Origin: Bacteroidia bacterium
GTDB taxonomy: Bacteria > Bacteroidota > Bacteroidia > Flavobacteriales > Schleiferiaceae
Assembly (NCBI GenBank): GCA_030424545.1
Contig: JAUHWL010000005.1
Location: 1 to 64,000, forward strand
DNA: 64,000 nt
Direction of reading: 5' to 3'
Made by a program: the position numbers and the translations under genes. Under the pieces are notes generated by a model. It was not told the DNA's origin and ran no database searches. It was given only the letters and a program-made list of their open reading frames with translations. The first letter of the stretch is position 1, and each line of letters starts with the position of its first letter. Below, piece by piece: positions 26,037 to 54,726 of this stretch.

Positions 26037-27677
<1,641 letters not shown>

Positions 27678-27717: not shown

Positions 27718-27996
27718 TTATATAATTGCAAGCACATCTGCCTCGCGCATAATTAAATAATCGATGCCCTGATATTTAAGTTCTGTTCCTGCGTATTTGC
27801 CGTACAAAACTTTGTCTCCAACTTTTACAGTCATAGGCTCATCTGGTTTACCATTTCCCATAGCTACAATTGTTCCTTCTTGAGGTTTTTCTTGTGCTGT
27901 ATCAGGAATAATAATACCAGATGCCGTTTTAGTTTCGGCTGCAGAAGCTTTAATAATAACTCGATCTGCAAGTGGGCGAATATTTAAATCTGCCAT
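27718..27996 (-). CDS. groS: Co-chaperonin GroES
   Basis: A 92-aa GroES with [10 protein letters not shown] at the start, the mobile loop [21 protein letters not shown] and [14 protein letters not shown]. It caps GroEL. It is preceded by a 220-bp intergenic region holding the secG terminator and a sigma-54-like promoter. Confidence 0.98.
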
Positions 27997-28041
27997 TTTA
28001 TAATTTTTTTAGGTTAAACATTTTTTACAGTAGGGTGATAG

Positions 28042-28057
28042 GCGAATAATGTGCCAA
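28042..28057 (-). promoter_or_regulatory. Sigma-54-type (-24/-12) promoter upstream of groES
   Basis: On the minus strand TTGGCAC is followed by 5 nt and TCGC. This matches the sigma-54 consensus TGGCAC-N5-TTGC with one mismatch and the exact GG-GC spacing. The predicted start is near 28030, giving a leader of about 35 nt before the groES ATG at 27996. It lies downstream of the secG terminator, so it would serve groES-groEL. Confidence 0.6.
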
Positions 28058-28099
28058 TTGGACGTTACGCCAGATGATGTTGGTTAATCATTTTAAATT

Positions 28100-28113
28100 C
28101 TGACAGGCTGACA
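28100..28113. repeat. Direct repeat CTGACA-GG-CTGACA, candidate activator site
   Basis: Two CTGACA copies with an 8-bp period, about 45 bp upstream of the -24 element of the groES promoter (TGTCAG on the promoter's strand). Enhancer-binding proteins bind upstream of sigma-54 promoters, so this is a candidate site, though 8-bp direct repeats are atypical for such sites. Confidence 0.35.
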
Positions 28114-28164: not shown

Positions 28165-28198
28165 AAAAAAAAAGACTGCTTAAACAGCAGTCTTTTTA
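28165..28198 (-). terminator. Terminator after secG (end of miaB-secG operon)
   Basis: AGACTGCT and AGCAGTCT with a 5-nt loop, flanked by an A-run that reads as a T-run of nine on the minus strand, about 20 bp after the secG stop. Confidence 0.85.
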
Positions 28199-28216: not shown

Positions 28217-28579
28217 TTAATCTACACTTTCTGGTAAATCTTCGTCAGGTGCAGAAGCTGGAACAGGTGCAGGTTGTTGCGTTGGCATTATCATATCATC
28301 AACTTGTTCTGTCATATCACTTTCGTCACTAGCTTGTGTGTTGCTCGTGGTATTAAACATGTTCATAGAAAGTACCAATACAAAAAGCGCAATGGCTAAT
28401 CCCCAAGTAGATTTATCTAAGAAATCTGTGGTTTTTTTAACGCCACCAAACATTTGTGCGTTGCCACCACCTCCACCAAAAGCAGAACCTAATCCGCCTC
28501 CTTTAGGGTTTTGAACTAATATAATTAGCGTGAGCAAAAGGCACACAACAACAATTAAAATGGTAAATAACAGTATCAT
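28217..28579 (-). CDS. secG: Preprotein translocase subunit SecG
   Basis: A 120-aa SecG with two membrane helices (about 2-20 and 53-72) around the conserved QNPKGGGLGSAFGGGG loop. SecG assists SecYE during export. The C-terminal tail (about 75-120) is acidic and Pro-rich, longer than in E. coli. It starts 2 bp after the upstream gene and is last in the operon. Confidence 0.94.
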   Translation of the reverse strand: MILLFTILIVVVCLLLTLIILVQNPKGGGLGSAFGGGGGNAQMFGGVKKTTDFLDKSTWGLAIALFVLVLSMNMFNTTSNTQASDESDMTEQVDDMIMPTQQPAPVPASAPDEDLPESVD

Positions 28580-28581
28580 AA

Positions 28582-29940
28582 TTAGTCTTTTTCTTTCAGC
28601 AGTTGCTTTACTTCCAAAATTTGGGCTGCAAATAAACTACTTTTTTCGGGATATTTCAAGCGAAGTATTTCGTATGCATTTATTGCTCTATTGTAGAGCT
28701 GCTGCCGCACATAGATTTGCGCCAATGTTTCTGTAATATAATCTGATTGAGCAGAAGTACTTAAATCCGCCATTTCGATATTTTTTTCAGAGGTTGGTGC
28801 TTTAAATTTAATACGCGGCTTCTCCATAAAACTTTCTAGTAACTCTTGGGCTACTTCAGGAGAAGACACCGGGCTGATGGGTTCGTCCTTAGAAATTTCA
28901 AAGTGTAAATCGGGAGCAATTGTTTCTGGCGCTTCTACCAATTCCTCTACTGGGGCAGGCTGCTCGGGCAACTTGTCTTGTTTAGTTTCTGGCTCTTGAT
29001 TTAGTGGCGCCTGAAGCCAATCTATAAAACTGTGCTTTTGTCCGCTATCCATAGCAACTTTAGGCGGCTCTTCTAAATTGGGTAAATCATCTATGGTAAA
29101 ATCAAACGTTACCTCAGTGGTTTCTGGCTCTGCTTTCTCAATTGCTTCAGGTATCGTTTCTTCAATTGAAGGTAATTCTTCTACAACCCCCTCTTCTATC
29201 GGCACAATGCTTTCCGCAGGCACTTCGAGATGTGGTTGAGCAATTATGGGCTCATGTAAAGGAGTTTCTATTACTTTTTCTTCAGCAGGTGGAGTAATAG
29301 GTTGTGCGGGTACAACGGTTTTTTCTTCCGCTTTCTCCGCTACAATTTCTTGCACTTTTTCTGGGGCAGGTGTAGGCTGGGCATGGGCGGGTTGAGCTGT
29401 TTCTGATTTATCGCCAAATTTTTCTTTTAACCTTCTGGCTCTTAACACCGTCTCGCGCACGCTTGCTGGCAAGTGACTTAAATCATCCTGGCTTCTTGGA
29501 GCTACGGTGGGAACTTGTACAACGGGCGGAGGTGTTTTTATTGGCTCCGGAACAACAGGTATTTCCAGGCTCTGTTTTTCTTCAATTGCTGGCGGAGTTT
29601 CCTGAGGTTTTTCCTCTATTATTTGTTCTTGCTGTTTTCTTTTTTGAAGATTTTCTAAGGCTTTAAATTCTATTTTCGGCTTAGCTTCTTCAACTTCTAA
29701 CTGCGATTCATCCCCTTCTACCCAGTTATACAACAAGGTTCTGTTTGGTACAGCAACCGCAGTTCTTTTTAGCTGTTTCGGGTATAAATAATTACTCTGA
29801 TTTTTTAATGCACGCAAATACAACGCTTGCAAAATACCACTGCTAGGGTAGTCTGCCAGAGCTCTTTCCAATTCATCGGCTTGTGCTTTTTGCAACAAAG
29901 CCGGATTTTTCATGTATGTTAAAATCAAGTCGCTATTCAC
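28582..29940 (-). CDS. Conserved hypothetical protein with Pro/Glu-rich linker and C-terminal TPR-like region
   Basis: A 452-aa protein without a signal peptide. The N-terminal 80 residues are helical and contain a capping sequence DYPSSGILQALYLRAL. Residues of about 95-390 are a low-complexity linker dense in Glu, Pro, Val and Ala. The last 50 residues (ETLAQIYVRQQLYNRAINAYE...) look like a tetratricopeptide repeat. It lies between lptE and secG with a 0-bp and 2-bp gap, so it is translationally coupled to envelope-export genes. No enzymatic motif is seen; a scaffold role is only a guess. Confidence 0.85.
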   Translation of the reverse strand: MNSDLILTYMKNPALLQKAQADELERALADYPSSGILQALYLRALKNQSNYLYPKQLKRTAVAVPNRTLLYNWVEGDESQLEVEEAKPKIEFKALENLQKRKQQEQIIEEKPQETPPAIEEKQSLEIPVVPEPIKTPPPVVQVPTVAPRSQDDLSHLPASVRETVLRARRLKEKFGDKSETAQPAHAQPTPAPEKVQEIVAEKAEEKTVVPAQPITPPAEEKVIETPLHEPIIAQPHLEVPAESIVPIEEGVVEELPSIEETIPEAIEKAEPETTEVTFDFTIDDLPNLEEPPKVAMDSGQKHSFIDWLQAPLNQEPETKQDKLPEQPAPVEELVEAPETIAPDLHFEISKDEPISPVSSPEVAQELLESFMEKPRIKFKAPTSEKNIEMADLSTSAQSDYITETLAQIYVRQQLYNRAINAYEILRLKYPEKSSLFAAQILEVKQLLKEKD

Positions 29941-30438
29941 CTACCAATTTGCTATTGCGCGGTTCATAATGTCTTCTGCTAATTCTTTATTTATTTCTTC
30001 CATCAATTCATTTTCTACATCAGAAAATAAATTATCTGAGCTAAAATCTCTATATCTAGAAAACGTTTCTTGGTAACTTTTATCGGCTTCTACATTATTT
30101 GTAAACGTAACCCTTATGGTAATAGTAAATCTACTTTGCGAAGTTGTTTCGTTGCCCTGGGCACTCATGGGCCTGACGTTGTAATCTGTAATGCTGCCTT
30201 CTACCAACAAGTCTGCTTGATCTGTAGTTAAATCTAGCGGGGTTTGCTGTATAAATGTGGTTTTTATTTGCTCTGTAAGTCTTTGACTTAAATCTGGGTT
30301 TACTTGCAATGCTTGATTTGCAAAATAGTCTACAGAAATAGTTTTAGCCTCGCCAACGCTACCACCAGTAAACGAATAACCGCCACCGCAAGCATACATA
30401 AACAAACCAATGGTTACTATAAAAATTAGCCTTTTCAC
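29941..30438 (-). CDS. lptE: LptE-family LPS assembly lipoprotein
   Basis: A 165-aa lipoprotein: signal peptide with lipobox MYAC and lipidated Cys17, then CGGGYSFTG. The body ([26 protein letters not shown]..., [13 protein letters not shown]) follows the LptE pattern, an outer-membrane plug for the LptD translocon. Its start overlaps the end of the sigma-54 activator gene by 4 bp. Confidence 0.85.
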
Positions 30439-31664
30439 AAATTGTATTGTTTAATCTTTCTGTACAAAGTACGTTCAGAAATGCCCAATTCTTTAGCCGC
30501 ATCTTTTCTTTTATTCGCGTTTCTTTCTAAAGATTTTTTTATCATTTCTATTTCCTTGTCTTGTAAAGAAAGGTTTTCTACTTCTATGGTGTGTACGTCT
30601 TCGTCTTCAAATCTTTCTACTACCGGTTTTGGTTTGTTTACAACAGGCATCAAAGATTCTGCGGGTTCGTCATCTAAATTATTGCCAATGATACGTTGTA
30701 TTAGGTTTGGATTTTCTCTAGATACATCGCGAATGTTGCCGCCATTGGCCAACTCAGAAACTAGTTTTTTCAGGTTGTTCATATCGCTGCGCATATCAAA
30801 CAACACTTTATACAAGATTTCTCTTTCGCTGCCAAAATCAGGCTCTTTGTTTTTCTTGTAAAGGGTAGGCAATTGCGTAGCATCTATTTCTGGAATGTAG
30901 CTGTGCAATGTTGCCGCATTTACCTCACGTTTGGTTTCTACCACACTTACCTGTTCTGCCAAATTTCTAAGTTGCCTTATATTACCCGGCCATCTGTATT
31001 GCACCAAAATATGGGCGGCTTCATCTGTAAGTCTAACCGCGGGCAATCTGTATTTTTCGGCAAAATCTTGAGCAAATTTTCTAAACAACAAATGGATGTC
31101 GCCTTCGCGCTCGCGCAGCGGTGGTAAATTTATTTCAACCGTGTTTAATCGGTAGTATAGATCTTCTCTGAATTTCCCTTCTTTAATGGCCTCCAACAAA
31201 TTAACGTTTGTTGCGCCAACCACGCGTACATCGGTTTTTTGCGTGCGCGATGAACCTACGCGAATGTATTCTCCGGTTTCTAAAACACGTAATAATCTAA
31301 CTTGTGTGCTTAGGGGCAATTCGCCTACTTCATCTAAAAAAATGGTTCCGCCATCGGCTTCTTCAAAATAGCCTTTTCTGGCCGAAGTTGCTCCGGTAAA
31401 AGATCCTTTTTCGTGGCCAAAAAGTTCGCTATCTATGGTGCCTTCTGGTATGGCACCGCAGTTTACGGCAATGTATGGTTTGTGCTTTCTGTGGCTTAAT
31501 TGGTGAATGAGTTTCGGGATGCTTTCTTTACCCACACCACTTTCTCCGCTAACCAAAACAGAAATATCTGTGGGCGCCACTTGTATTGCTTTTTGTAAGG
31601 CTCGGTCTAAACCCGGAGCATTCCCGATGATGCCAAATCTTTGTTTTGCTTCTTGTATGGTCAC
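30435..31664 (-). CDS. Sigma-54-dependent transcriptional activator lacking a sensor domain
   Basis: A 409-aa enhancer-binding protein. The AAA+ domain starts within 10 residues of the N-terminus: Walker A GESGVGKE (40-47), GSFTGA loop (87-92, a variant of GAFTGA), Walker [12 protein letters not shown], arginine-finger FREDLYYRL and [11 protein letters not shown] linker leads to a C-terminal Fis-type helix-turn-helix ([20 protein letters not shown]). It has no receiver, GAF or PAS domain, like PspF, so activity must be controlled by expression or a partner. It is coupled (4-bp overlaps) to the secreted-protein gene upstream and lptE downstream. Its targets are not known; the groES sigma-54-like promoter lies 2.4 kb away. 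Confidence 0.92.
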
Positions 31665-32065
31665 TGTAGTGTGTATTTTAATTCTAGCGCTTTATCTTGA
31701 TAAATTCTAGTTCCGGTAAGGATATTTATAACAAATGGGCGCGTAGCTTTAATAATAATATATTGGGCATTGGGGAATTTTTTGCTGAATTTCATATCCA
31801 TGTTTTTCCCTGTCCAAAGGGAATTCCAGAGCTCTTTGTTGCTAGCATCATAAATTCTTATTTCGTAGCCGGTTACCAAATTCTCTATACAAAGATCTCG
31901 GCTACTGTCATAAATACAAATCTCTAATCGGCCTTGTGCCTTTAGTATATCTGTTTTTATTTCAAATTGCAAATTATTATCCCACCAAGTGCCATCTTCT
32001 TTTTGCGTTTGGGCCGATAGTGCCACCGCAGTAAATAGGCAAAATGCCGTTAAAAATTGTCTCAT
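31661..32065 (-). CDS. Small secreted hypothetical protein
   Basis: A 134-aa protein with signal peptide [19 protein letters not shown] and a beta-rich domain ([45 protein letters not shown]). I recognise no family. It has 4-bp overlaps with both miaB and the sigma-54 activator gene, so it is part of that operon. Confidence 0.8.
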
Positions 32066-33519
32066 ACTGTTTTTGCGTATTCTATAGCTTCACCTTGTAA
32101 AGTTGCCGAATTGCATCCGGTAATTTTTACTAAAACGAAATCTCCTGCTTTGTAGTCTGCACGATCAAAAACAACCACATTGTTTTGCGATGTTCTACCA
32201 AAAAGTTGGGCATCGCTTTTCTTAGATACGCCTTCTACTAAAACAACAGCCTCTTTGCCAACATTTTCTTCGTTGCGCAAAAGTGAGTGTTCGCGTTGCT
32301 TGTCTATCACTTCTGTTAACCTGCGTTTTTTTTCTTCTAGCGGAATGTCGTCTTCCATTTTGCGAGCAGCCATGGTGTTGGGGCGCTCAGAATAATAGAA
32401 CATGTAGCCGTAATCGTATTTTACATAATCCATCAAGCTTAATGTTTCTTGATGATCTTCTTCTGTTTCGGTTGGGAAACCGCAAATCATATCTTGGCTT
32501 ATGGCACAATCTGGGATGATATTTCTGATGCGATCTATCAACGCGATATATTCTTCGCGGTTATGGCCACGGTTCATCAACTTTAACACGCGGCTGCTAC
32601 CACTTTGCACCGGCAAGTGTATGTAGTTGCAAATATTCTGGTAGTTGGCAATGACGTGCAATACTTCATCGTGCATGTCTTGCGGATTGCTTGTGGCAAA
32701 ACGGATGCGCATGCCCGGAACAGCCTCGGCCACCATACTTAATAATTTACCAAAGCTTACGGCTGTGGCTTGGGCCATATCACTGGCTTTATGAAAATCT
32801 TTTTTCGGCCCACCGCCAAACCACAAATAGCTATCTACATTTTGGCCCAGCAGGGTAATTTCTTTGTAGCCTCTGTTCCATAAATCCAATGCTTCGTCTA
32901 CAATGGTTTGTGGGTTTCTGCTTCTTTCGCGGCCGCGTGTAAACGGCACCACGCAAAAGCTGCACATATTATCGCACCCACGGGTAATGGAAATAAAGGC
33001 TGTAATGCCGTTGCCGCCCAAGCGCACGGGCTCAATATTATCGTAAGTTTCTTCTTTACTCAGAATTACGTTTACGGCTTTGCGGCCACCATCTAACTCG
33101 CCTACCAAATTGGGCAAATCGCGGTATGCATCGGGGCCCGCAACTAAGTCTACTAACTTTTCTTCTTCTAATAAATTGGCTTTCATGCGCTCGGCCATGC
33201 AGCCCAACACGCCAATTTTTAGTTCGGGTTTATCTGCTTTTAGCTTATTAAATTGGCTAATGCGTTTGCGCACGGTTTGCTCGGCTTTATCGCGAATGCT
33301 ACACGTATTTAATAAAACTAAATCGGCTTCTTCTATATTTCCTGTAGTACTGTAGCCATCTTTGTTTAAGATTGAGGCTACAATTTCGCTATCAGAAAAA
33401 TTCATTTGGCAACCGTAACTTTCTATGTACAGTTTTTTGCCTCCTTCGCGTTCGTCAATTACCGTGGCTTCGCCTTGGCGATTTTCATCCATTATTTTTT
33501 CTCCGAGCCGTGTATTCAT
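32062..33519 (-). CDS. miaB: tRNA-2-methylthio-N6-dimethylallyladenosine synthase MiaB
   Basis: A radical SAM methylthiotransferase modifying A37 of tRNAs. The N-terminal UPF0004 domain has its three cluster cysteines in YGCQMNFSDSE, NTCSIRDKA and LGCMAERM. The radical SAM motif is RGCDNMCSFCVVPFTRGRERSR (CxxxCxxC) and a TRAM domain ends the protein. ATG 33519 gives about 485 aa; ATG 33492, preceded by GGAG, is a good alternative (476 aa). A TTG extension to 33579 is ruled out because it would start before the promoter's start point. First gene of a six-gene operon. Confidence 0.95.
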   Translation of the reverse strand: MNTRLGEKIMDENRQGEATVIDEREGGKKLYIESYGCQMNFSDSEIVASILNKDGYSTTGNIEEADLVLLNTCSIRDKAEQTVRKRISQFNKLKADKPELKIGVLGCMAERMKANLLEEEKLVDLVAGPDAYRDLPNLVGELDGGRKAVNVILSKEETYDNIEPVRLGGNGITAFISITRGCDNMCSFCVVPFTRGRERSRNPQTIVDEALDLWNRGYKEITLLGQNVDSYLWFGGGPKKDFHKASDMAQATAVSFGKLLSMVAEAVPGMRIRFATSNPQDMHDEVLHVIANYQNICNYIHLPVQSGSSRVLKLMNRGHNREEYIALIDRIRNIIPDCAISQDMICGFPTETEEDHQETLSLMDYVKYDYGYMFYYSERPNTMAARKMEDDIPLEEKKRRLTEVIDKQREHSLLRNEENVGKEAVVLVEGVSKKSDAQLFGRTSQNNVVVFDRADYKAGDFVLVKITGCNSATLQGEAIEYAKTV

Positions 33520-33548
33520 CCTTGTAAATTCAATAAAATTTTGGAGTG

Positions 33549-33580
33549 CAAAAATAGCTTTTTGCCGTGGCGGTGACAAA
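33549..33580 (-). promoter_or_regulatory. Bacteroidota-type promoter for the miaB-secG operon
   Basis: On the minus strand TTTG (33580-33577), 20 bp, then TATTTTTG (33556-33549), followed by CAC. Both elements match the consensus. Transcription would start near 33543, 24 nt before the miaB ATG at 33519. Confidence 0.75.
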
Positions 33581-54678: not shown

Positions 54679-54726
54679 TGCTCGTTTACGTTACCCAAAG
54701 AAAATCAATAACAATGCCAAAATAGG

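Follow-up and report, generated by a model that had tools for sequence, protein, structure and literature searches.

The DNA analysed here, called the window throughout, is a 64,000-nt stretch of a Bacteroidia genome in which the chaperonin operon groESL lies behind a row of genes on the same strand, in the order miaB, a gene for a 134-aa protein, a sigma-54 activator gene, the LptE gene, a gene for a 452-aa protein and secG. The features of the locus, in the direction of reading, are as follows.

32062–33579, minus strand: MiaB, first of the row (TIGR01574, above cut-off)
31661–32065, minus strand: 134-aa protein without an NCBIfam match, overlapping the activator start by 4 nt
30435–31664, minus strand: sensor-less sigma-54 activator (bEBP), AAA+ domain from residue 12, GSFTGA at residue 87
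29941–30438, minus strand: LptE (PF04390, E = 5.6e-18)
28582–29940, minus strand: 452-aa protein of unknown family, without a Pfam or NCBIfam match
28217–28579, minus strand: SecG, the operon's last gene (PF03840, E = 1.2e-22)
28169–28197, minus strand: terminator hairpin and T run after secG (−15.8 kcal/mol, z = −4.46)
28101–28113, minus strand: proposed enhancer (UAS), TGTCAGCCTGTCA, matching TGNCA-N3-TGNCA at 8 of 8 positions, with a gap of 43 to the promoter
28042–28057, minus strand: predicted sigma-54 (−24/−12) promoter of groESL, TTGGCACATTATTCGC, consensus score 13 of 13, matrix score 18.7
27718–27996, minus strand: groES (Cpn10, E = 1.5e-32)
26037–27671, minus strand: groEL (Cpn60_TCP1, E = 1.2e-77)

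The terminator separates the activator operon from the groESL promoter and does not overlap the proposed enhancer in the window. The activator gene ends 2.4 kb from the promoter site, as the initial annotation had it when it placed a sensor-less activator at that distance, in an operon ending just before this promoter.

The activator consists of an AAA+ domain (PF00158, E = 3.1e-68), a linker between the AAA+ lid and the DNA-binding domain (residues 263–368), and a Fis-type HTH at residues 369–407 (HTH_8, E = 6.8e-12). A Pfam search of the window protein found no N-terminal sensor, the AAA+ domain beginning at residue 12. At E 1e-90 the protein was detected in 146 of the 149 Bacteroidia genomes. 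In 78 of these 146, groES follows downstream at no more than 15 kb and on the same strand (no more than 5 kb in 75); in 61 it is on another contig of a draft genome, and in 7 it shares the contig without being linked. Column conservation averages 0.85 for the AAA+ core, 0.82 for the HTH and 0.38 for residues 306–368. The sigma-54 contact loop reads GAFTGA in 45 of 82 activator sequences, GSFTGA in 36 and GSFTSA in one. A structure predicted from 14 sequences was poor (mean pLDDT 54.4, with only the lid region and the HTH good) and was not used. The 452-aa (28582–29940) and 134-aa (31661–32065) proteins of the operon are possible trans-acting partners of the activator.

On the minus strand, positions 28057–28042 read TTGGCAC-ATTAT-TCGC, with GG at 28055–28054, GC at 28043–28042 and the GG-N10-GC spacing between them. 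The site that had been described before groES, TTGGCAC-N5-TCGC, is thus present, and its coordinates and spacing were correct. From the spacing, transcription of groESL would be expected to start at ∼28030, upstream of the groES start codon, an ATG at 27996. The genome, of 3.38 Mb, has one copy of rpoN.

The motif by itself was rejected as evidence. With at most one mismatch, TGGCACN5TTGC occurs 6 times in the window against 6.09 expected. Across the genome, TGGCAYN5TTGM occurs 16 times and its reversed control 20 times; TTGGCACN5TTGC, again with at most one mismatch, occurs 97 times and its reversed control 46 times. Since the motif alone is no commoner in the window than chance predicts, the case for a promoter rests on comparison between genomes, and the significance of the groES site comes from its conservation and from its pairing with the upstream repeat. 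When a matrix was used instead, 32 window sites scored at least 8; the groES site was the top one (18.7, with a matrix that was derived from groES sites including the window's own) and the only one accompanied by TGNCA-N3-TGNCA, which is not part of the matrix.

Other types of control were also searched for. The consensus used for CIRCE was TTAGCACTC-N9-GAGTGCTAA. The best match near groES reached 12 of 18 positions, a score equalled elsewhere in the window, so that no CIRCE indicating HrcA was found there, in agreement with the earlier remark that a CIRCE-like palindrome is lacking. Between secG and groES no TAnnTTTG box matched at 6 of 6 positions, and the single 5-of-6 match in that interval sits in the T run of the terminator.

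groES was detected in 147 of the 149 Bacteroidia genomes, and all 147 upstream regions were examined, the best groES match being taken for each genome and the promoter site being sought within a limit of 110 nt. The consensus score was at least 11 in 142 of the 147 (10.0 in shuffles, 19 on the opposite strand), at least 12 in 124 (1.7 and 4) and 13 in 61 (0.3 and 0). With one genome per family, the promoter was found in 62 of 64 upstreams (shuffles 3.9, opposite strand 9). There were five misses, of which two (G090 and G056) carry a similar site past the 110-nt limit; with a limit of 150 nt, 144 upstreams pass. The same promoter site was seen in a set of 80 named loci retrieved with the activator, 62 of which include groES. 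The initial annotation had looked to GG(N10)GC as a feature to be conserved among relatives. The element is conserved (142/147), but the GC at −12 is not: its G is kept and is followed by A in 73 of the 142 sites, by C in 41 and by T in 28. An rpoN match was absent from 4 of the 149 genomes, three of which have same-genus sister genomes with rpoN; all four are drafts and therefore cannot serve as an rpoN-less control.

The reading of the site as a sigma-54 promoter is borne out by the −24/−12 conservation in 142 of 147 groES upstreams and by a mapped groES start with a sigma-54 motif in Flavobacterium psychrophilum (PMC9723704). On this comparative footing, groESL is almost certainly preceded by a real sigma-54 promoter.

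Similar sites lie before other chaperone genes. The chaperone matrix was built from the 78 groES sites scoring at least 12 among 90 genomes and was applied to 30 of the 40 grpE-bearing, 30 of the 31 htpG-bearing and 30 of the 38 dnaK-bearing genomes. A score of at least 10 was obtained at grpE in 16 of 30 (opposite strand 2, shuffles 1.1), at htpG in 24 of 30 (0 and 2.1) and at dnaK in 25 of 30 (0 and 0.8). Three htpG matches (L244, L263 and L272) lie far within the reading frame and are false.

Upstream of the window's promoter, the CTGACA repeat that had been noticed earlier is indeed present: it reads TGTCAGCCTGTCAG, occupies positions 28113–28100, 43 nt upstream of the promoter site, and proves to be an instance of TGNCA-N3-TGNCA, an element that is conserved and in helical phase with the promoter. 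The centre of this proposed enhancer is at about −77 from the expected groESL start. An element was counted when at least 7 of 8 positions matched within 100 nt upstream of a promoter site. By this rule 112 of the 142 groES sites have an element (in shuffles a mean of 7.6 and a maximum of 14) and 30 have none; with one genome per family, 47 of 62 have it (shuffles 3.95). At promoter sites scoring at least 7.5 it was found for grpE in 20 of 24 (shuffles 0.95), for htpG in 24 of 27 (0.6) and for dnaK in 23 of 28 (1.35). A half-site period of 8 is the commonest spacing in all four gene sets. In the groES set of 89, period 8 occurs in 68, period 12 in 38 and period 9 in 32; other spacings of TGNCA are thus also above the lowest level, which indicates that half-sites occur in clusters. 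A period of 8 bp is short for two HTH units in a Fis-like geometry.

The element favours chaperone sites over other sites of the same kind. In the 80 loci (908,463 bases, both strands), 92 sites reached a matrix score of at least 12, and the element accompanied 43 of the 58 at groES and 3 of the 34 elsewhere. Among the 16 TGGCAYN5TTGM sites in the window's own genome, only those of dnaK and htpG have it. groES (8 of 8, gap 43) and grpE (7 of 8, gap 12) of this genome also carry the element, at sites outside TGGCAYN5TTGM. The remaining 14 of the 16 sites lack the element, and five of these lie at promoter-like positions before other genes (L304, L310, L311, L315 and L318, the last at 54720–54705 on the minus strand of the window); they are possibly targets of other activators, or chance matches. 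Co-variation of activator and element was looked for and not seen: the element is retained in 9 of 11 genomes whose activator has diverged, compared with 107 of 136 for the rest.

The distance between element and promoter is periodic. Gaps cluster near 11, 21.5, 32, 42.5, 53.5, 63.5, 74 and 84. For gaps of more than 16 at all four genes (n = 116), the best period was 10.5 bp with R = 0.81, the largest value in 2000 nulls being 0.40. The best element match per groES upstream (n = 112) gave the same period with R = 0.85, and one groES upstream per family (n = 47) gave R = 0.87, against at most 0.51 in 2000 nulls. When the distance was taken to the ATG instead, R fell to 0.08 (all) and 0.22 (one per family). 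At grpE, 20 of 21 matches have a gap of 10–12, as do 22 of 26 at htpG. The window's gap of 43 leaves 1.0 modulo 10.5, in phase with the preferred value of 0.56. The element is thus, as far as spacing tells, held on one helix face relative to the promoter, and what was taken to mark a bEBP enhancer, a conserved upstream repeat in helical phase with its promoter, was found.

A reduced genome, G024 (0.49 Mb), bears on which protein works at these promoters. It has one rpoN and, at E 1e-20, one bEBP, the sensor-less activator. Its 7 consensus sites (2 in the reversed control) include five within ORFs, and the only ones at promoter positions are those before dnaK and groES. If sigma-54 requires a bEBP, as is established, the sensor-less activator, the only one at that cut-off in G024, must serve the dnaK and groES sites there. 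The elements of G024 are poor: that of groES matches at 6 of 8 positions, and that of dnaK matches at 7 of 8 with a gap of 46, outside the preferred phase. These weak or out-of-phase elements count against a strict code in that genome. The single bEBP of G024 has a GSFTSA loop and keeps its HTH. A perfect TGTCAAAATGTCA lies before its grpE (L331); no strong sigma-54 site was found by eye between this and the gene.

The explanation that best accounts for these observations, and one in which we have good confidence, is that groESL has a sigma-54 promoter driven by the neighbouring sensor-less bEBP through the phased element. In this scheme, groESL would be transcribed from the sigma-54 promoter; the bEBP encoded 2.4 kb upstream would bind TGNCA-N3-TGNCA through its Fis-type HTH, assemble on the promoter's face of the helix, contact sigma-54 with its GSFTGA loop and use ATP hydrolysis to open the promoter. 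An identical pairing of promoter and element would drive grpE, htpG and dnaK, which would make the activator the regulator of chaperones, and so of protein quality, in this genome and across the Bacteroidia. The sequences show the promoter and its conservation, the phased element, its bias towards chaperone genes and the near-universal activator. That the element belongs to the neighbouring activator we consider probable, and we infer that this activator is likely the one acting at groES. Its own control would be exerted in trans, on the model of PspF and PspA; because it has no sensor domain, control by chaperones or unfolded protein is plausible, and our guess is that a chaperone restrains it. 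Points that tell against this explanation are the activators that are not near groES, the groES sites that lack an element, the clusters of half-sites, the short 8-bp period, the poor elements of G024 and the want of co-variation.

The main competing explanation is that another bEBP, a response regulator with an HTH (L003), works through the element, and that the neighbouring activator serves other promoters. Such proteins are available: of the 12 PF00158 matches in the window's genome, three are strong bEBPs, namely the activator and two response regulators, and two of the three have an HTH. The pairing of element and activator, moreover, was made by position, by universality and from the genome with one bEBP. 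Against L003, G024 keeps consensus sites at dnaK and groES with the sensor-less protein as its only bEBP at E 1e-20, and this protein occurs in all but 3 of the 149 genomes, often adjoining groESL. We regard a role of L003 at the element as unlikely. The response regulator without an HTH (L002, contig C13) has a sigma-54 AAA+ domain and a GSFTSA loop.

The element might instead be bound by some other protein, a repressor or an architectural one, at the sigma-54 chaperone promoters, with the activator acting from elsewhere. Some elements lie only 10–13 nt upstream of −24, which is close for a classical enhancer. Further, the element overlaps the secG terminator in 24 of the 32 groES upstreams that have a hairpin and T run, and its conservation in those upstreams could be due in part to termination. 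However, phase-locking over about eight helical turns, with gaps from ∼11 to 84, is what an activator that loops or stacks predicts, and the fixed gaps of 10–12 at grpE (20/21) and htpG (22/26) likewise stand against a protein of another kind, which we judge improbable, and somewhat more so than L003. Least credible, and barely worth retaining, is a site at groES that matches by chance, with transcription by the primary sigma factor. This reading draws on the chance-level occurrence of the bare motif (in the window and, for one consensus form, genome-wide); against it stand the 142/147 conservation, the mapped F. psychrophilum start (PMC9723704) and the want of a convincing TAnnTTTG box in the interval from secG to groES.

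The overlapping arrangement takes the form TGTCAGGATGTCA...CTGACATTTTTT, with examples outside the window in G051, G130 and G142. Terminator and enhancer appear, from their sequences, to be fused in those upstreams.

The finding is broader than the initial annotation had thought. With less assurance than for the locus itself, though still on the favourable side, we propose a chaperone response across the Bacteroidia that would run through one sensor-less sigma-54 activator and a code of phased enhancers, TGNCA-N3-TGNCA placed on a grid of 10.5 bp, replacing a heat-shock sigma factor or HrcA, with an enhancer fused to the terminator of the activator's operon in many lineages. The class as a whole appears to rely on sigma-54, a switch that is driven by ATP and is all-or-none, together with a single near-universal activator. 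The phased element offers a testable regulon code and connects a family of orphan activators with its targets. If the proposal is true, the survival of RpoN in very small Bacteroidota genomes such as G024 would be owed to chaperone supply rather than to nitrogen. The retention of RpoN in the small genomes of the insect symbionts Walczuchella, Uzinura and Blattabacterium has been called unusual, and a role in nitrogen was suggested tentatively (PMC3971599); chaperone control would be an alternative explanation.

No description of the element was found in the literature searched, supplements and most subscription papers being beyond reach, and both the phased element and the connection with the orphan activator seem to be new.

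Chaperonins are usually under heat-shock sigma factors or HrcA. One groESL copy of Bradyrhizobium is under NifA and sigma-54, and so resembles the present case in being a chaperonin operon under sigma-54 control; it differs in being a single additional copy that belongs to nitrogen fixation, whereas here the general chaperone set of a class is concerned. The initial annotation had taken sigma-54 control of chaperonins to be out of the ordinary, but by the counts above it is the rule in the Bacteroidia, and sigma-54 motifs at chaperone genes of Bacteroidota are already in print (PMC9723704, PMC12316311). In F. psychrophilum, where such control of chaperones is already known, mapped starts with −24/−12 motifs, a sigma-54 class termed the SM4 regulon, lie at groES-groEL, dnaK, grpE-dnaJ, htpG, lon and clpB (PMC9723704). 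The gene order there is as here, with a sigma-54 regulator (0733) and LptE (0732) just before groESL (0729–0728); the regulator-LptE pair was assigned another promoter type, and three PF00158 proteins were named with none assigned to specific promoters (PMC9723704). The main text of that study makes no mention of a palindrome, inverted repeat or UAS. In a survey of 33 classes, Bacteroidota sigma-54 promoters were enriched for GroEL, GroES, GrpE, DnaJ and DnaK, and a Blattabacterium genome paper is cited for groES and grpE (PMC12316311). The survey gives promoter matrices only, and its main text mentions no UAS, upstream activation, palindrome or inverted repeat.

Sensor-less bEBPs have precedents in PspF, controlled by PspA, and in HrpRS, controlled by HrpV (PMC7057263). 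The closest likeness is to PspF of Escherichia coli, which also has an AAA+ core without an N-terminal sensor and an HTH at its C-terminal end (PMC7057263). The activator matches PspF at E 1e-60 among solved structures and scores below the cut-off of TIGR02974. PspF differs in having other targets and in being held by PspA (PMC7057263), whereas the activator described here has a longer linker (residues 263–368).
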